From the NCBI GenBank assembly GCA_017472225.1, contig JAFUQS010000007.1:60833-124832 (forward strand): a stretch of 64,000 nucleotides of DNA, given 5' to 3'. A program made the position numbers and the translations under genes. Below, piece after piece: positions 9,172-61,133 of this stretch. Origin of the DNA: Clostridia bacterium. Its GTDB lineage: Bacteria > Bacillota > Clostridia > Oscillospirales > Acutalibacteraceae. How positions within the stretch are numbered: the stretch's first letter is position 1; every line of letters starts with the position of its first letter. The notes under the pieces were generated by a model, which did no database searches, was not told the DNA's origin, and was given only the letters and a program-made list of their open reading frames with translations.

Positions 9172-9178
9172 CATTGTT

Positions 9179-9397
9179 GGTGCGGAGACAGGATTTGAAC
9201 CTGCAAAGGCCCTCTTGCGGTTCCCAAAATTTCTTAGTGCCTTGGAGCGGCACAGAAATTTTGACCGCTGCGCCATTTTGCTCTCGTTTCATCGTCCAAC
9301 GGACGCACTTCGGGCAAAATGCCCCGGGTTACACCCGTCGGTTGCAGAATTTTTAAATAAAAAAAGTACCCACCAATAGGTGAGTACTTAAAGCTGG
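9179..9397 (-). repeat. tRNA-tail mini-element, copy R1
   Basis: Read on the minus strand it starts behind a residual CGCACCA, then carries a terminator hairpin (AAGTACTCACC/GGTGGGTACTT plus T-run), a folded body (CCGACGG with CCGTTGG; GGGCA with TGCCC), the conserved module GCGCAGCGGTCAAAATT paired with AATTTTGGGAACCGC, and finally a copy of the tRNA-fMet T-arm and acceptor ending in CACCA. It is almost identical (a few substitutions) to 12607-12826 and related in plan to 60915-61133. It contains no plausible gene. Confidence 0.85.
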
Positions 9398-9430
9398 TGC
9401 GAGTGTTCATAAGGGATTAAAACTTCAAGT

Positions 9431-10432
9431 TTAGTACATTAACATATACGGATTATTACCCAAATATAATACATAAATATTCTCGGCTACTTTTCGCATC
9501 TCACAGTCTGCTTCATTGTCAATTGTTAGTGTGTCGCCGTTTAATTTCCATGTTCTGTTGTTTACATATCCGTATGTATCTCTGATTTTTCCGTTAGATT
9601 CAAACCAGAAAGTGCCTTTCCAATGTCCGACATCATCCCTTATAACGACATCCCATTTTTTTGTCAACACCTTGGTTATATTATCCCCGTTAACAACTGA
9701 ATAATCCTCCTTGTGTGCTCTGAAATAAGCCTGACCTTCATCTTTTTCAAAAGAAACCATAGCTAAATCAAGAGATATTTCAATTTCAGGATTTGTATAA
9801 GCCTCCCTGTCAGCAGAGGTAACGAGATATGTAAACTTTTCTGTTTTACCTTCCGAATTAGGAATTTTGAAAGTGATTTTAACATCAGCAGTCAAATCCT
9901 TTATTTCTGATTTAATATCTATGCGAGCACGGCGAGTCTCTTTTTCGCCAGTCAGAAGTAATAAATTATCACTGGGATCTGAATACCATTCACCGGCTTT
10001 TTTTGTTTTAAGACTTCCGTTAACATCCATATACTGCTCTTGCTCATATTGGAAGTAGGCTCCTTCATCCATAGCACTGTATTTCTTGTTTCCATATTCT
10101 ACTGAAGCAAAGGAACCTGTATGGAATTCACTGCTTGCTCTGTTTAAATTTGTTACAGTGTATGAAAAAGCAGCATATGTATGTCCAACAGGAGCAACAT
10201 ATGGATTATCATCATCTTCTTCGGGGTTATATTCTTTTGGTGTATAACGATTATCATCGTTTATGTTATTGAGGGCAACTGTAAACTCTGCCGCATTTAA
10301 GGTGAATTCAAAAATATCAGTTGAAACAGTATCTCCTAATTTGTAGTAGCTCGTATTGTCGCTCGATTTGCCACAAGCAGCAAAAGAAAAACATAAAACA
10401 GCAACTAAAACTAAAGCAATAATTTTTTTCAT
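9431..10432 (-). CDS. Secreted lipoprotein of unknown function
   Basis: 333 residues. It has a classic lipoprotein signal: MKK start, hydrophobic core, lipobox FAAC with the lipidated Cys at residue 20, then a polar linker. Residues about 28-200 contain an Ig-like beta region (GHTYAAFSYTVTNLN) resembling DUF4352-type extracellular domains. The C-terminal 80 residues (WKGTFWFESNGKIRDTYGY, then WKLNGDTLTI) look like a small beta-barrel. It has an AAAGGACG site. It is cargo of the tRNA-fMet island; the signal peptide closely resembles that of the lipoprotein at 59924 in the other island. Confidence 0.75.
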   Translation of the reverse strand: MKKIIALVLVAVLCFSFAACGKSSDNTSYYKLGDTVSTDIFEFTLNAAEFTVALNNINDDNRYTPKEYNPEEDDDNPYVAPVGHTYAAFSYTVTNLNRASSEFHTGSFASVEYGNKKYSAMDEGAYFQYEQEQYMDVNGSLKTKKAGEWYSDPSDNLLLLTGEKETRRARIDIKSEIKDLTADVKITFKIPNSEGKTEKFTYLVTSADREAYTNPEIEISLDLAMVSFEKDEGQAYFRAHKEDYSVVNGDNITKVLTKKWDVVIRDDVGHWKGTFWFESNGKIRDTYGYVNNRTWKLNGDTLTIDNEADCEMRKVAENIYVLYLGNNPYMLMY

Positions 10433-10510
10433 TTTTATCGTCCTTTTTATATTATTTGCGGAACTTTATGAACACCCACAAAACAGTTCACCTTTTTATC
10501 TCCGCAAAAT

Positions 10511-10541
10511 AAAAAAGTGCGTCAACCGAAGTAAACGCACT
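10511..10541 (-). terminator. Minus-strand intrinsic terminator inside the island
   Basis: AGTGCGT and ACGCACT pair around a 12-nt loop; on the minus strand a T6 run follows. It lies upstream of the lipoprotein gene and would isolate it from readthrough. Confidence 0.6.
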
Positions 10542-10563
10542 AAAAACGCAAACTCCGATTGTC

Positions 10564-10714
10564 GCCAAACAAAACCAGATAAATGGGAATGATAATCAAG
10601 CACACCATCTGTTGGAATTTGCATTTTAACAAATTCTAAATGGTATGCAAAAAGACATAGTATCCCTAAAAAAGAAAATACCATTCCCGTGACATTTATT
10701 TGGTTTTGTTTGGC
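10564..10714. repeat. Foldable 151-bp element with 22-bp terminal inverted repeats
   Basis: The ends 10564-10585 and 10693-10714 are inverted repeats with one mismatch (GCCAAACAAAACCA outermost). The stem continues inward through GGGAATG (10585-10591) and CATTCCC (10682-10688). A separate inner hairpin occupies 10604-10644 (ACCAT/ATGGT and GAATTTG/CAAATTC). No gene is visible. It could be a MITE-like element or a structured RNA; terminal target duplications are not evident. Confidence 0.65.
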
Positions 10715-10767
10715 ACGATTAGTATATCACAACATTTTGCAATATTTCAATACTTTTATAAAAAAAT

Positions 10768-10884
10768 CCCACTTGACAGCTTTGCAGTAATACTGAAAGT
10801 GTCATAGTGGGTTTATATACTTTGATGTGAGGATATAAAAAATTGAGTATTCACAGGTCAAATCCCTTATGAATACCCAATATG
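10768..10884 (+). repeat. Direct repeat copy A of about 115 bp
   Basis: It matches 12493-12607 nearly base for base. It contains an imperfect hairpin (CCCACT...AGTGGG at 10768-10811) and the dyad GTATTCA...TGAATAC (about 10847-10876) around AAATCCCTTA. The rest of 10433-10979 holds only the lipoprotein upstream region, the terminator, the folded element and this repeat. Confidence 0.85.
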
Positions 10885-10979
10885 AATAATAACGCAATTT
10901 TTGATACGGGTTGCATTGGGTTGCAAAGTTCCATTGAAATGCAACCGAAAACAAGTATGCAACCCGAAAAAATAGTTGA

Positions 10980-11654
10980 TTATCCGTACCTTGCAACTTC
11001 TTCTTTCGTATGAATATTGAAGATATGCATTATCCAACATCCGTATTTCCCTGGCTCTTGTGGTAACGGTTCTATTTCGTAATCATATTGCTCAAATTCT
11101 TTAAAAATTTCCACTGAATGTTTGCCAAGCATAGTTAGTGGGATCTCGCCATTTCGCCAGCATGCACCATAAGCCATCAACACTAACCAACATTGAACTG
11201 TATGAAAATAATCGTGTGTATACTCGTCGTAGGAAACTTTAAATGCTATGTATTCAAAAAGGGTTTCGTGTTCAGCAGGTATGAAATGGTTTGGGTCTCC
11301 ACCATTATCCAGAAGTAATCTCATAACTGACGCAGCAACATTGGGGGCATCAATCCACATAGCGTTCCACAACACATTATCATTGTCAAAAATAGTATTG
11401 GGATCAAGTCCAAATTCCAGTAGCATCTTTAGCGTTTTGACAACATAATTGCTGTGCATATTTTCAATACTTACAGACTCGACTTGAGGATCGAGAGCAT
11501 CCCTATATTCACAAAAGCACTCATCCGTAAAAGCAACAGCTAACTCCGCCAATTCTCCTTTTGCGAATTTTCGTGAAATCAAAAGGTCTCTGATTTTTCC
11601 TATGTTGGAGGGTTCTTGCTCAAAAGTTTCTTTGATCTGCTTAACTAAATTCAT
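10980..11654 (-). CDS. Ankyrin-like protein of unknown function
   Basis: 224 residues. Two segments resemble degenerate ankyrin repeats: MLLEFGLDPNTIFDNDN (about 77-93) and RLLLDNGGDPNHFIP (about 112-126), each with the L-L-x-x-G-x-D-P-N turn. The remainder is acidic and aromatic (DYFHTVQCWLVLMAYGACW). There is no signal peptide or membrane segment. A GAGGTG site precedes the ATG. Single-gene ankyrin-like and SMI1/DUF-type proteins in such islands are often orphan immunity or effector-binding proteins, but nothing here proves that. Confidence 0.65.
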   Translation of the reverse strand: MNLVKQIKETFEQEPSNIGKIRDLLISRKFAKGELAELAVAFTDECFCEYRDALDPQVESVSIENMHSNYVVKTLKMLLEFGLDPNTIFDNDNVLWNAMWIDAPNVAASVMRLLLDNGGDPNHFIPAEHETLFEYIAFKVSYDEYTHDYFHTVQCWLVLMAYGACWRNGEIPLTMLGKHSVEIFKEFEQYDYEIEPLPQEPGKYGCWIMHIFNIHTKEEVARYG

Positions 11655-11709
11655 ACAATCACCTCTTAATATTCTAATTATAACACACTATCTGTCCGAT
11701 TAAAAGGAC

Positions 11710-11790
11710 TTTGAAACTATTCTTTGGTTACGATGAAACTTTTCTCCTACGATGAAACTAATCTTGGGTACGATGAAATTATTCTTTTGA
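11710..11790. repeat. Four degenerate 21-bp tandem repeats
   Basis: Units of about 21 bp share TACGATGAAAYT followed by a T-rich run (11728, 11748 and 11769, with a weaker unit before them). GAGAAAAGTTTCA just after the array is the inverse of TGAAACTTTTCTC in the first clear unit. The array lies upstream of the ankyrin-like gene and may be a protein-binding or replication-type site. The stretch 11655-12069 has no gene besides this and the hairpin at 11947. Confidence 0.6.
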
Positions 11791-11946
11791 GAAAAGTTTC
11801 ATTGTGATTTGAGTGCGTGAAAAATGGGTAAGTTTGAGTCACTCAACTTCGACTTTCGCATGGTCAATTTTGATACAATGAAATTAATCTCATTTACAAA
11901 TATTCTGAAAAGCCTTGATTCCAAGCGACTTTTGACAAAAAGAAAA

Positions 11947-11979
11947 GGAACGCAAGTATCGTATCAATACTTGCGTTCC
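11947..11979 (-). terminator. Hairpin with 13-bp perfect stem
   Basis: GGAACGCAAGTAT and ATACTTGCGTTCC pair around a 7-nt loop; on the minus strand the stem is followed by TTTTCTTTTT. It stands directly behind a minus-strand GCACCA, the same arrangement as at the start of the tRNA-tail units. Confidence 0.7.
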
Positions 11980-12069
11980 AATATGGTGCGGATGTTCGTA
12001 AGGGATTGCACTATATATTTACTTTTATTTTCGGTTATGTTATACTTAACATAAAGTGAGGTGTTTTAT

Positions 12070-12477
12070 ATGACATTAGACGAAATTTATGAATCGTTTA
12101 TTTGGGATGCATCATACACTAATGAAGAATATGAATCTAAAATTACTATTGGTATAAACGAGGCAAAAAAGTATAAATACCTTTATCCTTTTATTCAACC
12201 AGTAATTCCCGAAAAATCAAAATGTATATGGGAACCGTGTGCAAGAGTTATAGCATTAAAATCTGATGAAGAACTCAAACCATATTTGTACTTATTATTT
12301 GAATGGTTACAAGATTTGAACTGGCCCGGTGCATATGTTATTTTTGACAGATTATTAAAAATGCCTTTTTCTTTGTTAGAAGATGTATTAAATCATTGTA
12401 AAAGGCAAGCTAAAAAAGAAAACGATGAGTTGTGGCTGATGGCTCTTGAAGATTTTAGTAAACAGATAAATTTATAA
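12070..12477 (+). CDS. DUF5071-like protein
   Basis: 135 residues from ATG 12070. An upstream in-frame GTG at 12061 lies inside the GAGGTG ribosome site (12058-12063), so 12070, six bases further on, is the start. The centre and C-terminal half (LYLLFEWLQDLNWPGAYVIF near residue 80) match the DUF5071 pattern of a WLQDxNWP core in an all-helical protein. DUF5071 proteins occur as singletons in accessory loci, often close to contact-dependent toxin-immunity genes; function is unknown. It ends 16 bp before the direct repeat at 12493. Confidence 0.7.
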   Translation: MTLDEIYESFIWDASYTNEEYESKITIGINEAKKYKYLYPFIQPVIPEKSKCIWEPCARVIALKSDEELKPYLYLLFEWLQDLNWPGAYVIFDRLLKMPFSLLEDVLNHCKRQAKKENDELWLMALEDFSKQINL

Positions 12478-12492
12478 TATACAACAAGACAA

Positions 12493-12607
12493 CCCACTTG
12501 ACAGCTTTGCAGTAATACTGAAAGTGTCATAGTGGGTTATATACTTTGATGTGAGGATATAAAAAATTGAGTATTCACAGGCAAATCCCTTATGAATACC
12601 CAATATG
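12493..12607 (+). repeat. Direct repeat copy B of about 115 bp
   Basis: This is the second copy of 10768-10884, with the same hairpin and GTATTCA/TGAATAC dyad. It runs directly into the tRNA-fMet tail that starts R2, so the repeat borders the presumed attachment site. Confidence 0.85.
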
Positions 12608-12826
12608 GTTGCGGAGACAGGTTTTGAACCTGCAAAGGCCCTCTTGCGGTTCCTAAAATTTCTTAGTGCCTTGGAGCGGCACAGAAATTTTGACCGCTGC
12701 GCCATTTTGCTCTCGTTTCATCGTCCAACGGACGCACTTCGGGCAAAATGCCCCGGGTTACACCCGTCGGTTGCGGAATTTTTAAATAAAAAAAGTACCC
12801 ACCAATAGGTGAGTACTTAAAGCTGG
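12607..12826 (-). repeat. tRNA-tail mini-element, copy R2
   Basis: Directly downstream of the intact tRNA-fMet gene on the minus strand. It has the same order as R1: GTACTCACC hairpin terminator, folded body, GCGCAGCGGTCAAAATT/AATTTT module, and a duplicated tRNA-fMet tail ending CCGCAACCA. The tail carries one T-loop change (TTCAAAACC instead of TTCAAATCC), so it is not a functional tRNA part. The unit length between CCA ends is 217 bp. Confidence 0.88.
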
Positions 12827-12900
12827 TTGCGGAGACAGGATTTGAACCTGCAACCTCCGGGTTATGAGCCCGACGAGCTACCGGGTTGCTCCACTCCGCG
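12824..12900 (-). tRNA. Initiator tRNA-fMet (CAT)
   Basis: 77 nt with encoded CCA. Anticodon CAT sits in a stem closed by GGG/CCC pairs, and the acceptor begins C1 opposite A72. The C1-A72 mismatch and the three G-C pairs are the hallmarks of bacterial initiator tRNA. T-arm GCAGG/CCTGT with TTCAAAT loop. This is the only intact copy here; two partial tails of the same gene lie at about 9179 and 12607. Confidence 0.97.
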
Positions 12901-56239: not shown

Positions 56240-56316
56240 CGGGGTGTGGCGAAGTTTGGTATCGCGCTTGGTTCGGGTCCAAGAGGCCGGGGGTTCGAAT
56301 CCCCCTACTCCGACCA
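56240..56316 (+). tRNA. tRNA-Pro (CGG)
   Basis: 77 nt with encoded CCA. Anticodon stem CTTGG/CCAAG with loop TTCGGGT, anticodon CGG (56274-56276). Acceptor CGGGGTG pairs with TACTCCG through two G-T pairs. The displaced 3' half at 60868-60914 (ending CACTCCG) pairs better with this 5' half, so the present 3' half was probably brought in by the integrated element. Confidence 0.95.
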
Positions 56317-56321
56317 ACGGA

Positions 56322-56363
56322 AAAAGCCTTGAAACTCAACGAGTTTCAAGGCTTTTCCTTTTT
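56322..56363. terminator. Terminator at the left end of the element
   Basis: AAAAGCCTTGAAACTC and GAGTTTCAAGGCTTTT form a perfect 16-bp stem with an AAC loop, then CCTTTTT. It ends tRNA-Pro transcription. Confidence 0.9.
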
Positions 56364-56394
56364 GGAGATACCCTCTGCGAACTGCACCAAAACA

Positions 56395-56420
56395 CAAAAA
56401 GCGCACAAAAAAGCGCACAA
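56395..56420 (+). repeat. Left arm-type integrase sites
   Basis: Two direct copies of AAAAAGCGCACAA with a 12-bp period. The same core recurs at the right end (60675-60719), the arrangement expected for arm-type sites of a lambda/Tn916-type integrase. Confidence 0.7.
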
Positions 56421-56475
56421 CTTTCGGAAAAGGCGTTTGAAAGCCACCGATGCACCGCAAGAAAGGGTGTATCTT

Positions 56476-57702
56476 ATGGCAGCAATCCGAGAGAACAAAA
56501 AGAATGGTAAAGTGGTTTCCTATCGCTTCACAACCTGTTTGGAGCGGGACGCACAGGGCAAACAGATACGGCGTTACGCCACTTGGACGCCACCCGAGGG
56601 TCTGACCCCCGCAAAGGCAAAGAAAGCCGCAGAACGGGCAGCGGACGCGTGGGAACAGGAAACGCGCAAGGAATACCAAGAGGAAAAGAAAGCGGCGGCG
56701 TGCGGTATGGCGTACAATCTACCGCCCGAGAAGCGGCGGGATGATTTCTGTGCCTTTGTCAATGATGTTTGGCTCCCGCTCCATGTGCGCGGCGGCAACT
56801 GCAAGCCGACAACCGTGGCGTACTACAAGAATATCGCAAAGGTTATCACAGACTACTTCGGTGGCTGCGTGCTGCAAGAGATAAGTCCCATCCAAATCCA
56901 AAAGTACCTTGTGTATCTGCAAACAGGCTACAAGACCCCACAGGGCAAGCCGCTTGCCCCTAAATCTGTTCGACACCACTACGGCACACTCACAAATATC
57001 TTCGGCTACGCGGACAAGCAAGAGATGATAGTAAAGAATCCGATGCAGCGCGTGGATGCTCCCAAAAAGGTCAAGAAAGCGGTGGATGCACTCACCCAAG
57101 AGCAAGCAAGCCGATTCTTTGAAGCACTCCCCGCGTGTGACCTCGATTTCCGCTGTATGCTGCACCTCTTTATCACTACTGGAATACGACGCGGCGAATG
57201 TATGGGAATCAAGTGGCGGGATTTGGATTTCAAACGCGGCACGGTCACCATAGCGCGCTGCGTGACCTACACGCCCGAATGTGGTGTGATAGTCAGCACT
57301 CCAAAGACAGAGAATAGTGTCCGCACAATCCCGCTGATGCCCTCCACGGTCAAGTTACTCCAAGAGTGGAAGAAGCAGACACAGGCAGAACACCCCGGCA
57401 CGATACTCAAAGACGCATTTCTGTTTCCAAAAGGCAAAGATGTGTTTGAGCCGCGCGACCCGAACTCCATCACGCGGCGCGTCAAGCGGTTTATGGTAAA
57501 GAACGACTTTCCCGACCTGTCCCCACACGATTTGCGGCACTCCTGCGCCACGCTCCTGCTTGCCGAGGGCGCAGACATAAAGAGCGTACAGGAAATCTTG
57601 GGACACGCGGATGCAAGTACGACCCTCGACTATTATGTAAAGACCGACTTGCAGCAAATGAAAGCAGCAACACAAAAATACGCCGCCGCGTTCAATCTTT
57701 GA
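56476..57702 (+). CDS. int: Tyrosine-recombinase integrase (Tn916/ICE type)
   Basis: 408 residues from ATG 56476, preceded by AAAGGGTG. The frame is open further upstream through the tRNA, but that part is not coding. Residues 1-60 resemble the AP2-like arm-binding domain; about 95-190 is the SAM-like core-binding domain (FCAFVNDVWLPLHV); the catalytic domain holds Arg in TTGIRRGE, HDLRHS with the next His/Arg, LGHADASTT and the nucleophile Tyr in LDYYVKT. It should catalyse insertion into tRNA-Pro, where it sits 160 bp from the junction. Confidence 0.93.
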   Translation: MAAIRENKKNGKVVSYRFTTCLERDAQGKQIRRYATWTPPEGLTPAKAKKAAERAADAWEQETRKEYQEEKKAAACGMAYNLPPEKRRDDFCAFVNDVWLPLHVRGGNCKPTTVAYYKNIAKVITDYFGGCVLQEISPIQIQKYLVYLQTGYKTPQGKPLAPKSVRHHYGTLTNIFGYADKQEMIVKNPMQRVDAPKKVKKAVDALTQEQASRFFEALPACDLDFRCMLHLFITTGIRRGECMGIKWRDLDFKRGTVTIARCVTYTPECGVIVSTPKTENSVRTIPLMPSTVKLLQEWKKQTQAEHPGTILKDAFLFPKGKDVFEPRDPNSITRRVKRFMVKNDFPDLSPHDLRHSCATLLLAEGADIKSVQEILGHADASTTLDYYVKTDLQQMKAATQKYAAAFNL

Positions 57703-57727
57703 AAACGCGCAGCGGACAAGACGGAAA

Positions 57728-57759
57728 GGGACGGGAGAACAAATCTCCCGCCCCTTTTT
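57728..57759. terminator. Bidirectional terminator between int and the GIY-YIG gene
   Basis: CGGGAGA and TCTCCCG, extended by GGG/CCC, around a 5-nt loop, with T5 on the plus strand. The GIY-YIG stop codon overlaps its edge. Confidence 0.85.
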
Positions 57760-58177
57760 ATATTATCTGTTGCAAGACTTCTCTTGCATTGACTTCGTTG
57801 TTATCGTATTTCTTCCAATCCTCTGCTTTTGGTATCTGCGTGTTTAGGATTGGCTTGTGGCGGCGTATGTATTCGCCCTCTTTTTCTCCGATTTCTACAA
57901 GTTGATTTGTGATGCCTTTACTCTTGGCATAATAAAGCACATCAAAGGTTATCGGATGCCCCTTGCGCTGTGCTTCCGCGATAATGCGGTACTTCTTTTC
58001 GCTGTCCGTTTTGATACCCACATAATGCTCTGCAATCCGTCGCAGCATATTTGCGCTTTTGCCGATATAAACAATGTCCGCGTCTATCTTGATGCAGTAT
58101 ATTCCCGCGTGGCGGTACTTGTCCGCAAGTCCCTTGCGCTCCATCCACGCAACTGTATTCTCTACATAGTTACCCAT
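57758..58177 (-). CDS. GIY-YIG nuclease-domain protein
   Basis: 139 residues. GIYCIKIDADIVYIGKSANM (about 25-44) is the GIY-YIG motif with spacing close to the family's, followed by LRRIAEHY with the catalytic Arg, and a later Glu-rich helix (VEIGEKEGEYIRRHKPILN) holding the metal-binding Glu and the terminal Asn. Single-domain GIY-YIG proteins in mobile elements may nick or cut DNA; the target is unknown. Its start overlaps the stop of the winged-helix gene (TAATG). Confidence 0.82.
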   Translation of the reverse strand: MGNYVENTVAWMERKGLADKYRHAGIYCIKIDADIVYIGKSANMLRRIAEHYVGIKTDSEKKYRIIAEAQRKGHPITFDVLYYAKSKGITNQLVEIGEKEGEYIRRHKPILNTQIPKAEDWKKYDNNEVNAREVLQQII

Positions 58178-58779
58178 TAGAACTCAAATACCGCCTGTTT
58201 CTTTTGCTCTATTGGCTTGGGTCTGTTCTTCCCCTCTGCTACTGGACGAGGGATGGTAACTTCCTTTACTTTTGGATAGAATACGGTCACTTCTTCGGAT
58301 TCATCATTATTATTTATTCCCGCATTATCTGTCAAATCATTATTATATATTTCTATCATATCCCCCGTACCATTTGTAACGCCCTGCGGCTGCTCCTGTC
58401 CGTCTGCCGTACATTCCTCGAAATCTTGACCGTTATCCGTCATATCTTTTTTGGTCTGCGTGGCGGTCTGTGGGACTTCATAGAAATCGTATGTGTTGCC
58501 CCCGGCGGGGACGAGATACCCCATATTCACAAGTTTCTTGAACTGGTCACCATAGGTAGAGCGTGCCATCCCAATATCCCGCGTGATTGCAGCGGGAGAA
58601 AGGGCGAATGTGTAGTTGTCTGCATTGGCAGCAAGATACAGATACAACCGTAGGGCGGGCGCGCCGAGGATACGGGATGCAGCCATCCAATTCTCATTCT
58701 TGATACCGAGAAAATCTTTTGAAACGCGTTCCCGATGTACGCGCACAATGCGCTGATTAGGATATGTAATAGGTGGCAT
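58177..58779 (-). CDS. Winged-helix DNA-binding protein, replication-like
   Basis: 200 residues from ATG 58779 with a GGAGG site. Residues about 20-95 form a helix-turn-helix region (LYLYLAANADNYTFALSPAAITRDIGMARSTYGDQFKKL style, broken here for length: AAITRDIGMARSTYGDQF), as in replication initiators and element regulators of Firmicutes. The C-terminal half is acidic and low-complexity (NNDLTDNAGINNNDESEE). Position beside iteron-like repeats at 59345 hints at initiation, but a transcriptional regulator is equally possible. Confidence 0.65.
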   Translation of the reverse strand: MPPITYPNQRIVRVHRERVSKDFLGIKNENWMAASRILGAPALRLYLYLAANADNYTFALSPAAITRDIGMARSTYGDQFKKLVNMGYLVPAGGNTYDFYEVPQTATQTKKDMTDNGQDFEECTADGQEQPQGVTNGTGDMIEIYNNDLTDNAGINNNDESEEVTVFYPKVKEVTIPRPVAEGKNRPKPIEQKKQAVFEF

Positions 58780-58792
58780 TGCATTTCCTCCA

Positions 58793-59047
58793 TTACTGGC
58801 ACAGGCTATCAATCGCCTGTTTCAATTCCTTGATTTCCATTAGAGCCTTTTGGATATCAACACTCACAGAAATACGCTGCAATACTCTTTCGGTGATTTC
58901 ATCAATCAACTGTTCCCGCTCACGCTGCGCGTTCAATTCCTGCATAAACATTTTGTGCTGAATGTCTAACCGCTCATTGACATCATCAGTCATATTGAAA
59001 ACGAACTTCTGTCGGTCAAATAAACTCATAGGATAGTTTTGATACAT
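58793..59047 (-). CDS. Small coiled-coil protein
   Basis: 84 residues from ATG 59047, which has an AAGGAG site; longer starts lack one. Long amphipathic helices rich in Glu/Gln/Arg (VNERLDIQHKMFMQELNAQR, IDEITERVLQRI, MEIKELKQAIDSL) suggest a coiled-coil. No family is recognised. It is the first gene of a minus-strand unit with the winged-helix and GIY-YIG genes and has a clear promoter at 59114-59142. Confidence 0.6.
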   Translation of the reverse strand: MYQNYPMSLFDRQKFVFNMTDDVNERLDIQHKMFMQELNAQREREQLIDEITERVLQRISVSVDIQKALMEIKELKQAIDSLCQ

Positions 59048-59113
59048 TTGATATTTCTCCTTTTTCTCACTTTTATATCTTGAAAACATACTTTTCTTTT
59101 GTTTTCTATAATT

Positions 59114-59142
59114 ATTATACAATATTTTTCATAAAAAATCAA
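59114..59142 (-). promoter_or_regulatory. Promoter of the minus-strand element operon
   Basis: Minus-strand TTGATT (59137-59142), 17-bp spacer, TATAAT (59114-59119). Confidence 0.75.
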
Positions 59143-59344
59143 AAAAGGACGGTCAGCGGACACATCGGAGAAATTGACCGGGTGGCGGGTGGTATTACGG
59201 GAGAAAAATATTTTTGCACCCCCGGTTGCTTTATGCGTGACCCGCGCTCCCTCGAAATCGGTTTTGATTTTCACCGTTTCCGTTGTGTCCGTGCTGATTT
59301 TCTCTGTATCTCCCGGAATCAGCAATAATCCACGCCTATTTCCG

Positions 59345-59384
59345 CAGAATCAGCCGGAATCAGACGGAATCCAAAAGAATCTAT
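59345..59384. repeat. Iteron-like 10-bp tandem repeats
   Basis: Four head-to-tail units with exact 10-bp period: CAGAATCAGC, CGGAATCAGA, CGGAATCCAA, AAGAATCTAT. One more CGGAATCAGC lies at 59314. Helically phased repeats suggest a protein-binding or origin site. The rest of 59143-59434 shows no gene I can support. Confidence 0.6.
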
Positions 59385-59434
59385 GTGAATTGTTAGGAAA
59401 TCAAACTTTTTTCGGGAAAATCCGCGAAAATACT

Positions 59435-59510
59435 TGACTTTTGATATATATATATATTAGAATGTACGAAAAGGGGTGCAATTTCGCACTTCTTCGTACA
59501 TTTTTGTTTT
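59435..59510 (+). promoter_or_regulatory. Promoter plus leader hairpin before the small plus-strand genes
   Basis: TTGACT (about 59435) and TAGAAT (about 59459) with an 18-bp AT-repeat spacer. Right after it TGTACGA and TCGTACA with inner GTGC/GCAC form a hairpin (59464-59499) followed by a T-rich run, so most transcripts could terminate before the first gene: a candidate attenuator. Confidence 0.55.
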
Positions 59511-59524
59511 TAGGAGGAATCCCT

Positions 59525-59731
59525 ATGCGCTTTACCATCGACACCGAACTGGAAAGAATCATTGTCCCCGACACCTTTTTCAATCAGATTGACAAGATGA
59601 ACGCAATTCTGATTGCCAACGGCGCAGAGGACAAGAAAATCGACTATGTTGAGTACATCAACGCCGCAATCGTCAAGGCACAGAAGCACGCCCCTGTCCG
59701 CAAGGCGGATGTGAAGTCTTTGAAGAGATAA
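59525..59731 (+). CDS. Small element protein
   Basis: 68 residues from ATG 59525 behind AGGAGG; an upstream extension crosses the leader hairpin. Sequence features: RFTIDTELERIIVPDTFF, then NAILIANGAEDKKIDYVEY and a basic tail (KADVKSLKR). It might be a small DNA-binding or relaxosome-type accessory protein, but no motif proves it. It is 1 bp from the next gene. Confidence 0.6.
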   Translation: MRFTIDTELERIIVPDTFFNQIDKMNAILIANGAEDKKIDYVEYINAAIVKAQKHAPVRKADVKSLKR

Positions 59732-59732
59732 T

Positions 59733-59918
59733 ATGGCGAAACGAGTAACCGAACAAGAGAAAGAAAAAATGTGGCGGCTGTATCAAGAAACTCCCAACTA
59801 TACCAAGGTTGGAAAGATGGTCAAGCGCGACCCCGGCACAGTTTCCAAGTATGTGCGGGAGTATGAAGCCGCTATCCGTGCGGCGGCTGTTGTTCTCCAC
59901 GCAAAAGAAAAGGAGTAA
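59733..59918 (+). CDS. Small helix-turn-helix protein
   Basis: 61 residues. QEKEKMWRLYQETPNYTKVG followed by KRDPGTVSKYVREYE reads as a resolvase/transposase-type helix-turn-helix (helix 2 near 21-28, recognition helix near 35-45). Likely a DNA-binding regulator of the element. The stop codon shares its last base with a possible ATG of the lipoprotein frame, so coupling is likely. Confidence 0.65.
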   Translation: MAKRVTEQEKEKMWRLYQETPNYTKVGKMVKRDPGTVSKYVREYEAAIRAAAVVLHAKEKE

Positions 59919-59923
59919 TGAAA

Positions 59924-60622
59924 ATGAAGAAAATTATTGCGCTGCTCTTGGCAGCTATTATGTGTCTGTCCTTGATTGCTTGTGGTGGCAATAATGCACC
60001 CGAAACAAACGAAACGCCTACCGAAACCACAGCACCCGAAGAAGTCAAAATGAGTAAGGATGAAATGTTAGCTATTGCAGAGGAATACACCGCTGGCGAT
60101 ATTCAGAATGATTCTATCGAAAATATCGCAAGAGCAAAGCAGAAGTATTGCAACAAAACCATCCTGCTTTCTGGAACTGTAAGAAATATCCAAGAAGATT
60201 ATATCGAACTATCCGCAATGTATAGCGCAAACTACATAATTGATGTATATCTCTCCCTTGATGAACTGGTATTGTTAGAGCAAGGGCAATACATTACTGT
60301 TGTTGGTACTACCACAGACGAAATTATTGATGCGTCGGAAAATGTTGCAGAATACACTTTCGATTATAGCCACTACCAAATGCCCGATGCTTATTTTGTA
60401 AAGGACACGCTTGAAGTAACAGGTATTCTAAAAGGTGTTAGCAATAGTTATGCTCCCGCTTTCAATATCCAAATTGGTGAAAGCAATGTATTGAAACTGA
60501 TTTATTTTGCCGAGAGTGTAGATACAAGCACACTTGAATACGGACAGGAAATCACATTTGTTGCAAAGGCAGTTAGCAAAAACGATAATTGGCATTATTA
60601 TGATGCAGAAATAATTGGCTAA
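59924..60622 (+). CDS. Element-encoded lipoprotein with OB-like domain
   Basis: 232 residues from ATG 59924 (AAAGGAG at 59908 gives good spacing; the ATG at 59918 is too close). Signal peptide MKKIIALLLAAIMCLSLIAC with the lipid Cys at 20, a Thr/Glu/Pro linker, then two OB-like beta domains (TILLSGTVRNIQEDYIELSA and DTLEVTGILKGVSN), similar to tRNA_anti-like lipoproteins in Firmicutes. Surface-exposed; the role could be exclusion or binding, unproven. A strong terminator follows. Confidence 0.75.
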   Translation: MKKIIALLLAAIMCLSLIACGGNNAPETNETPTETTAPEEVKMSKDEMLAIAEEYTAGDIQNDSIENIARAKQKYCNKTILLSGTVRNIQEDYIELSAMYSANYIIDVYLSLDELVLLEQGQYITVVGTTTDEIIDASENVAEYTFDYSHYQMPDAYFVKDTLEVTGILKGVSNSYAPAFNIQIGESNVLKLIYFAESVDTSTLEYGQEITFVAKAVSKNDNWHYYDAEIIG

Positions 60623-60626
60623 TAAG

Positions 60627-60662
60627 AAAATAGCGCGGGGCATTAGTCCCGCGCTATTTTCT
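60627..60662. terminator. Terminator after the element lipoprotein
   Basis: AAAATAGCGCGGG and CCCGCGCTATTTT form a perfect 13-bp stem with an 8-nt loop. Confidence 0.88.
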
Positions 60663-60674
60663 TGTGACGCACAC

Positions 60675-60719
60675 GCAGCGCACAAGACGCGAAAAAAGCG
60701 CACAGATTTGTGCGCTTTT
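60675..60719. repeat. Right arm-type integrase sites
   Basis: Three copies of the AGCGCACA core: GCAGCGCACAAG (60675), AAAAAAGCGCACAGA (60692) and an inverted AAAAGCGCACAAA (60707-60719). They mirror the two at 56395. Confidence 0.7.
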
Positions 60720-60867
60720 CGTTAGATTCCGCTTGCTTTTGGAACTGATTTATGATACAATAATTGTGTCAAAAACATCGGTAATTCGGTGGAATCAAGG
60801 CGTTTTCCGTCCCGCGTTATGCGGATTCGCGGCTGTTGCCGCAAGCCGTAATAACGCATCGTGCGAC

Positions 60868-60914
60868 GGTTCGGGACCAAGAGGCCATGGGTTCAAGTCC
60901 CGTCACTCCGACCA
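60868..60914 (+). other. Right attachment site with displaced tRNA-Pro 3' half
   Basis: GGTTCGGGACCAAGAGGCC repeats the anticodon arm of tRNA-Pro (one difference, A for T), followed by the T-arm and acceptor ending CACTCCGACCA. There is no 5' half, so it is not a tRNA gene. Confidence 0.88.
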
Positions 60915-61133
60915 TTTTTAGAAAAGTACTCACTTTCAAGTGGGTACTTTTTTATAGGCCGATTGGTCCCGAACCAATGTGAGGGACCAGGCATTGAGCA
61001 TGACCGCCGCCAGTGGCGGACAAAGGGAATGCGAAATGGCGCAGCGGTCAAAATTCGGCGATGTGAATAACGAGCAACGAATTTTGGGAACCGCAAGAGG
61101 TAGCCATGGGTTCAAGTCCCGTCACTCCGACCA
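60915..61133 (+). repeat. tRNA-tail mini-element at tRNA-Pro, copy M3
   Basis: 219 bp between CCA ends. Begins with the hairpin GTACTCAC/GTGGGTAC and a T-run, then body stems (TTGGTCCC/GGGACCA-type and CCGCC/GGCGG), then the module GGCGCAGCGGTCAAAATT with AATTTTGGGAACCGCAAGAGG, and a second tRNA-Pro tail identical for 30 bp to that ending at 60914. The order and size match the fMet copies; the body sequence differs. Confidence 0.85.

Follow-up and report, generated by a model that had tools for sequence, protein, structure and literature searches.

A two-hairpin palindromic element at tRNA gene loops of gut Clostridia, apparently a family of mobile DNA

A non-coding element of about 110 bp, here named E, recurs at tRNA loci of Clostridia, where it can be drawn as two adjacent hairpins and is accompanied, at most of its copies, by part of a tRNA gene. 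It was encountered in a 64-kb stretch of DNA from a Clostridia bacterium (the window), and we propose that E is probably a non-autonomous palindromic mobile DNA that works as a folded single strand, is mobilised in trans and is specialised on tRNA genes. The proposal is argued from features legible in the sequences themselves, namely the copies, their tRNA targets and orientation, the empty sites, the fold and the absence of a recurrent neighbour gene.

The window contains three copies of E, each within a longer unit (A, B and C; Table 1) measuring 218, 217 and 219 bp, respectively, from CCA end to CCA end. On a common plan E is followed by a tRNA 3′ remnant, and each unit has a terminator-like hairpin of the form AGTACTCAC..GTGGGTACTTTTTT, a stem module and a tRNA tail; the length of about 218 bp is that of E, the terminator and the tRNA remnant together. 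Units A and B are near-copies, with 214 identities, 3 mismatches and 1 gap. Unit C has the terminator type, module and layout in common with them and aligns to A with 143 identities and a score of 131, where the best of 200 letter shuffles of C reaches 97.5. The repeated non-coding units at tRNA loci described in an earlier note on this DNA are therefore real. The note had placed them between consecutive tRNA CCA ends; of the three, A alone directly adjoins an intact tRNA gene, a tRNA-Met(CAT) of the initiator type as judged by eye from its first and last acceptor bases. Before unit B come 3.2 kb of other DNA and then a 9-nt tail resembling that of tRNA-Leu (CTCGCACCA, 9395-9403), and before unit C a tRNA-Pro 3′ half. 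The constant size is a local matter, as neighbouring copies elsewhere lie 108, 111, 169, 203, 205, 213, 290, about 356 or 824 bp apart. Two further strong copies of the module are found in the same genome, at tRNA-Leu(CAG) and tRNA-Pro(TGG).

Table 1. Positions of the three units and of the adjoining tRNA features in the window. R1, a covariance model, was made from the five copies found in this genome.
Feature	Position	Strand	Basis
Unit A	12606-12823	minus	
Intact tRNA-Met(CAT)	12824-12900	minus	ARAGORN and Rfam
Unit A, terminator-like hairpin AGTACTCACC..GGTGGGTACTTTTTTT	12788-12817	minus	sequence
Unit A, fold-back S′, weak inverted copy of tRNA positions 39-51	12762-12774	minus	score 8 (weak)
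Unit A, element E (hairpin 1, P1-P2-H1; hairpin 2, P3)	12640-12750	minus	R1, 104.6 bits (copy used in model building)
Unit A, fMet 3′ remnant (tRNA positions 48-77), CCA end	12606-12635	minus	sequence comparison
Unit B	9178-9394	minus	
Unit B, terminator-like hairpin	9359-9388	minus	
Unit B, S′, inverted copy of tRNA positions 39-53	9333-9347	minus	score 10
Unit B, element E	9211-9321	minus	R1, 108.3 bits (copy used in model building)
Unit B, fMet 3′ remnant, end CTCCGCACCA, one A short of the tRNA	9178-9206	minus	
Intact tRNA-Pro(CGG), locus of unit C	56240-56316	plus	ARAGORN
tRNA-Pro 3′ half before unit C	60870-60914	plus	
Unit C	60915-61133	plus	
Unit C, terminator-like hairpin AGTACTCAC..GTGGGTACTTTTTT	60925-60953	plus	
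Unit C, S′, inverted copy of tRNA-Pro positions 29-49	60957-60977	plus	score 16
Unit C, element E	60992-61100	plus	R1, 100.9 bits (copy used in model building)
Unit C, tRNA-Pro 3′ remnant (positions 47-77), CCA end	61103-61133	plus	

On the minus strand the order is tRNA-fMet, unit A, about 3.2 kb with ORFs, and unit B. This intervening cargo (9395-12605) has boundaries of its own, which are the Leu-like tRNA tails ATCCGCACCA (11984-11993) and CTCGCACCA, and its start, TATTGGGTATTCATAAGGGAT, is repeated (12585-12605 and 10862-10882); at loci L063 and L282 a start like it comes after a tRNA gene or tail. The plus-strand series begins with tRNA-Pro(CGG) and runs through a stretch containing a tyrosine integrase (56467-57702) and the tRNA-Pro 3′ half, probably the right end of the integrase-bearing element, to unit C. 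The integrase stretch (56316-60914) also holds a GIY-YIG-like ORF at 57758-58177 (21.6 bits, with the Pfam cutoff at 22.6) and a tRNA_anti-like ORF at 59918-60622.

The covariance-model search that the earlier note had suggested places E in many genomes. R1, which its five source copies match by construction, has matches in 94 of 250 genomes of the same family at an E-value of 0.001 or below, with up to 16 per genome among the best 16 candidates scored. The refined model R2 matches 56 of 391 genomes of the class, several by short matches alone, which may belong to a second element type considered below; at an E-value of 1e-5 or below it matches 5 of 398 genomes of the phylum. Two of these five lie outside the class, and one of the two (L303) is a full copy of E 3′ of a tRNA-Met gene. 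The records among the matches listed are Clostridia assemblies, nearly all of them from animal guts going by their names, and one match came from viral contigs, which were scanned with a single exact pattern.

Flanks were analysed for 129 distinct copies, obtained from 148 matches after duplicates and copies near locus ends were dropped; three short R1 matches were set aside and later found to resemble the second type. A tRNA remnant (score at least 14 within a 60-nt flank) adjoins 91 of the 129 copies; among the controls, none of 516 shuffled flanks and 3 of 319 genomic segments reach this score. The remnants are of tRNA-Leu, Pro, Ser, Trp, Met and Asn. The copies fall into two mirror layouts, the U type with a 5′ tRNA half (44 copies) and the D type with a 3′ half (47). 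An intact tRNA gene of the same kind lies within 600 bp of 43 of the 44 U-type copies, downstream in 42, and of 28 of the 47 D-type copies, upstream in 26. All 71 of these intact genes are oriented like E; in the copy-by-copy comparison of flanks only the two copies at L148 have a neighbouring tRNA in the opposite orientation. The 19 D-type copies with no intact gene of the same kind within 600 bp count against our preferred reading, and contig ends and cargo may account for some of them. In the D-loop, E is inserted after GGCAG or GGTAG (Leu, Pro and Asn), and elsewhere it lies in the anticodon loop (Pro and Met) or the variable region (Trp, Ser, Pro and Asn). At L116 an almost complete tRNA-Ser is split across one full and one partial copy of E. 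The earlier note had seen tRNA tails as the attachment sites, of which the link with tRNA stands; E enters the loops, however, and the piece retained is a 5′ half about as often as a 3′ half. Further copies thus exist, they are linked with tRNA genes and one local duplication does not explain them, yet 38 of the 129 have no recognisable tRNA remnant. Some of the 38 adjoin terminator-like hairpins (by eye). Separately, at L062, L068, L069 and L093, E of genomes G138 and G224 lies in a partly common non-tRNA context (CAGTACCTC..) with no Rfam match.

Empty sites, which the earlier note had proposed to look for in close strains, are present in genomes of the same genus. The tRNA-Leu(GAG) loci of G224 (L279 and L280) have no R2 match, while in its congener G138 one such gene (L097) holds a 173-bp insert after GGCAG. 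Besides E, the insert comprises a short stretch and the tRNA 5′ half for a second time, together with some bases from upstream of that half, so that the gene behind the insert is whole again. At L278, the second Leu(GAG) gene of G138, the insert measures 172 bp and is identical to the first at 168 positions. By eye, L280 has its upstream flank in common with L097 and its downstream flank with L278; each G138 locus therefore matches L280 in one flank only, and rearrangement is mixed into the comparison. The retained tRNA part leaves an intact tRNA gene, as at these empty and filled sites, and no insertion lacking a second tRNA copy was seen among the E loci compared. No R2 match is present at the fMet locus of either G138 or G224, where the upstream gene is the one seen in the window. 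At a syntenic Leu(CAG) gene both genomes carry two copies of E, alike within each genome, and hairpin 1 differs between the genomes (L080 and L099).

Copies of E also stand in tandem. At L216 two different copies adjoin head to tail, repeating every 111 bp with no host DNA between them, and at L155 two like copies have a period of 108 bp. Such arrangements suggest that E alone can be the moving unit. Other tandem units, of about 200 bp (L067 and L075), also carry terminator, promoter or tRNA pieces, and at L151 three copies of E are spaced about 356 bp apart, both intervals holding an intact tRNA-Met gene; here the 5′ part of a tRNA precedes the first copy and its 3′ part follows the last.

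These larger units would suit an alternative in which the tRNA loci are arrays of cassettes and E serves as a recombination site, in the manner of a folded phage att or an integron attC. A tyrosine recombinase supplied in trans would insert into the tRNA loops circles composed of E, half a tRNA and a terminator, at times with genes as well. The tandem units with a terminator or promoter, the intact tRNA-Met genes between the copies at L151 and the ORF-bearing cargo between E units, both in the window and at L063, are consistent with such arrays. So are the filled Leu(GAG) sites, at which an intact tRNA is rebuilt; integrative elements do likewise on insertion. However, no recombinase family recurs within 4 kb of E, the attC boxes are absent from its conserved columns, E stands in tandem by itself with no cargo, and the cargo in the window is bounded by short Leu-like tails and not by E. 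We therefore regard this alternative as unlikely. Its fullest version is no less so: the tRNA genes of gut Clostridia would carry a cassette system in which circles of E, a tRNA part and a terminator or promoter, in some cases with genes or an entire tRNA gene, rebuild the tRNA each time, the arrays being anchored on tRNA genes as integron arrays are on attI.

In the D type, E is often preceded by a fold-back, S′, that is an inverted copy of an arm of the tRNA concerned (score at least 10 in 33 of 47 copies, compared with 0.7% for other tRNAs); in the U type S′ is found in 6 of 44 copies. S′ often bridges the insertion point and is plain to see at L169 and L303; it may be a template-switch scar, a part of the fold or a guide. 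An RNA-guided reading was appealing since S′ often spans the uninterrupted site, and was set aside since S′ is clear in the D type only. The fold-backs could also mean that E is passive, with tRNA genes breaking and duplicating by template switching, S′ as the scar, and E simply captured and then spread by gene conversion between tRNA genes. Besides the inverted copies, the tandem duplication of flanking host DNA, the near-identical inserts at both Leu(GAG) genes of G138 and the differing hairpin 1 at the one syntenic Leu(CAG) locus would fit this. Passive spread appears rather unlikely, given that one sequence of about 110 bp is found at six tRNA types, at defined loop points and in one orientation, and occurs as well at sites with no tRNA remnant and head to tail with itself.

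The fold of E was derived from an 81-row MAFFT alignment, prepared from 141 copies by removing near-alike sequences; six odd matches had been dropped by hand, and one was at a locus end. The fold comprises 29 pairs in two hairpins, P1-P2-H1 and P3; in the latter a GGN bulge is conserved and the tip varies. The paired columns are complementary in 97.1% of 2348 cells, compared with 75.0% after shuffling and 35-50% after sliding; both sides change in 20 of the 29 pairs, and the covariation score is 0.556 against 0.131. G-U pairs make up 30 of 2349 cells. The variation at the base of hairpin 2 is understated because the collecting pattern fixed it (80 of at least 115 stretches collected with the pattern were used); P1, P2 and H1 were not fixed. 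Among the variable pairs of E there are 27 G-U and 63 other mismatches, so that G-U is 27 of 90 non-Watson-Crick pairs. In 88 tRNAs of the same loci, with stems placed by distance from CCA, the corresponding figures are 31 and 6 in the acceptor stem and 59 and 8 in the T stem. Strong covariation almost without G-U points to selection on DNA pairing rather than RNA, and the stems of E are apparently selected at the DNA level. GNA-triloop hairpins (CGC-GAA-GCG and similar) adjoin E, and hairpins of this kind are very stable in DNA.

A structured RNA tied to the tRNA genes, which the earlier note had offered as its other reading, is accordingly less likely. As an antisense, decoy or processing signal E would act on the adjoining tRNA, its mobility being incidental; the strong covariation and the G.A mismatches between P1 and P2 in the alignment also fit an RNA, a U-type E, lying between a tRNA 5′ half and the intact gene, may be co-transcribed with the latter, and D-type copies often hold an inverted copy of the tRNA arm. 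The near-absence of G-U pairs, the position of D-type E behind a terminator-like hairpin (by eye), the copies with no tRNA remnant, the patchy distribution across genomes and the lack of a match in Rfam make such a role quite unlikely. Rfam gave nothing but tRNA matches at the gathering threshold and, over E, nothing credible at a lax threshold, where the hits other than tRNAs scored below the curated values; no covariance model of a group I or II intron or of another known RNA family matches E. The tRNA mimic also considered in the earlier note finds no support and was rejected, as GCGGU pairs with ACCGC in all 81 aligned sequences (in part of which the collecting pattern fixed these letters), the covarying pairs differ from the cloverleaf, and ARAGORN and Rfam report no tRNA in E; a T-box likeness of GGNACCGC, noticed by eye, was dropped since its N does not track the tRNA discriminator (by eye).

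No protein family recurs beside E. In a survey of ORFs of at least 90 aa, up to 4 kb away where the loci reach, with the window left out and some loci representing the same place twice, the largest family occurs at 7 of 122 loci. None of the recurrent families is an integrase of E's own, and the integrase of the window belongs to the different stretch before unit C. With the further copies, the remnants and the empty sites, this leaves the earlier suggestion of a non-autonomous mobile unit linked with tRNA genes well supported.

Y1 transposases overall are weakly associated with E, which is present in 57 of 127 genomes with and 37 of 123 without them (p 0.02). By strength of the Y1 match, E is found in 26 of 77 genomes with strong, 9 of 18 with middle and 22 of 32 with weak matches, and the enrichment in the weak class led us to test for RAYT. 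Two comparisons served as controls: the strong, IS200-type matches are neutral (26 of 77 against 68 of 173), and E is depleted with IS110 (6 of 38 against 88 of 212). A RAYT-like protein was detected in 67 of the 250 family genomes; E is present in 47 of these 67 and in 47 of the 183 others (odds ratio 6.8, p 4e-10), in a test chosen after seeing the data and on genomes that are not independent. By genus the figures are 34 of 48 and 23 of 87. Half of the E-positive genomes (47 of 94) thus have RAYT, including that of the window, with a RAYT-like Y1 protein at G000:C84:17202-17681. Three RAYT-like proteins that were tested match NF047646 (REP_Tyr_transpos) with 68-77 bits, below the cutoff of 80. 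Some E-rich genomes have no detected RAYT (G068 with 16 matches, G053 with 10 and G003 with 6, where at most 16 were scored per genome), and 31 loci of about 3 kb around Y1/RAYT genes contain no credible match to E; one of the five that were inspected has a REP-like palindrome of its own flanking the gene. RAYT, being associated with E and not adjacent to it, is a lead and not a finding. Several RAYT-like proteins (L256, L270, L274 and others) show by eye a variable stretch (VGRGLAPAE, VGAATCRP and similar), which may be a translated palindrome within the gene.

Taken together, these data lead us to propose the following model for E as mobile DNA. The non-coding element, of about 108-125 bp, would be active as a folded single strand of two adjacent hairpins, with the GGN bulge and an AAGAG end as its conserved marks. 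It would insert behind G and in a single orientation, at GGYAG^ in the D-loop, at GGG^ in the anticodon loop and in the variable region. In the insertions that survive, an intact tRNA of the same kind usually adjoins E, with the E-bearing 5′ half placed 5′ of the intact gene in the U type and the E-bearing 3′ half placed 3′ of it, behind an extra terminator, in the D type, as though the loop had received E along with half a tRNA; the units would later multiply in tandem. We infer a single-stranded intermediate and mobilisation in trans; the enzyme would recognise folded single-stranded DNA, and the foremost candidate is a RAYT-like HUH (Y1) transposase.

Two related hairpins were noticed. A second element type has hairpin 1 in common with E, by eye, and a different 3′ domain (GAAGAAACAAGGAG..TATGTTT.TGA). 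It lies at tRNA-Asn in the genome of the window (L028, about 205-323; L029, minus strand) and elsewhere at tRNA-Trp (L082, about 880-1180), at tRNA-Pro (L098, about 1430-1540) and at L304; a pattern search for it gave three places. A third hairpin insert, GGTCTCGGCTGCCGCC..ACACCCGC, occupies the T-loop of three tRNA remnants (L064, L145 and L040) and also lies inside a RAYT-like gene (L267).

E is best read as a new family of mobile palindromic DNA that specialises in tRNA loops. A search of titles and abstract openings, mostly outside subscription journals, found no such element described; non-autonomous hairpin elements are known already, and going by those titles the tRNA niche, the adjoining intact tRNA and the two-hairpin architecture are new. 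Although tRNA genes are essential, they are the main home of this hairpin element, which more than a third of the species sampled from the family carry, and its integration chemistry would leave tRNA function whole. E may be a natural source of tRNA gene duplication, of broken tRNA genes and perhaps of gene cargo at tRNA loci in gut bacteria, may explain odd tRNA remnants in annotations, and is a clear instance of secondary structure on which selection apparently acts in DNA.

Several known systems resemble E in part. Rickettsia palindromic elements are palindromic, of about its size and located inside genes; E is set apart from them, by description only, in being centred on tRNA and adjoined by an intact tRNA. 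Phages, islands and ICEs insert in tRNA genes, often at loop positions, and like E leave an intact tRNA, but E has no integrase, measures about 110-220 bp, occurs in tandem copies and retains the 5′ half about as often as the 3′ half. Integron attC sites are folded DNA with a variable tip and bulged bases, in tandem units with cargo, and E has the same features, with cargo in some units; it differs in taking tRNA loops as targets and in showing neither attC box (RYYYAAC and GTTRRRY) in its conserved columns. REP elements carry a GTAG or CGTC tag 5′ of the hairpin, which is absent from E in the 81-row alignment, where G and C precede hairpin 1 and GGCGCA precedes hairpin 2. REP elements and REPINs with their RAYT transposases (PMC3733652) are nevertheless among the closest known systems. 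E differs in its length of about 110 bp, its two different hairpins and its centring on tRNA loops, and it does not lie beside RAYT genes, unlike the repeats that flank the transposase gene. Both are small, palindromic, non-coding hairpin DNAs that are non-autonomous and multi-copy, and a RAYT-like HUH enzyme is detected in many, though not all, of the genomes that carry E.
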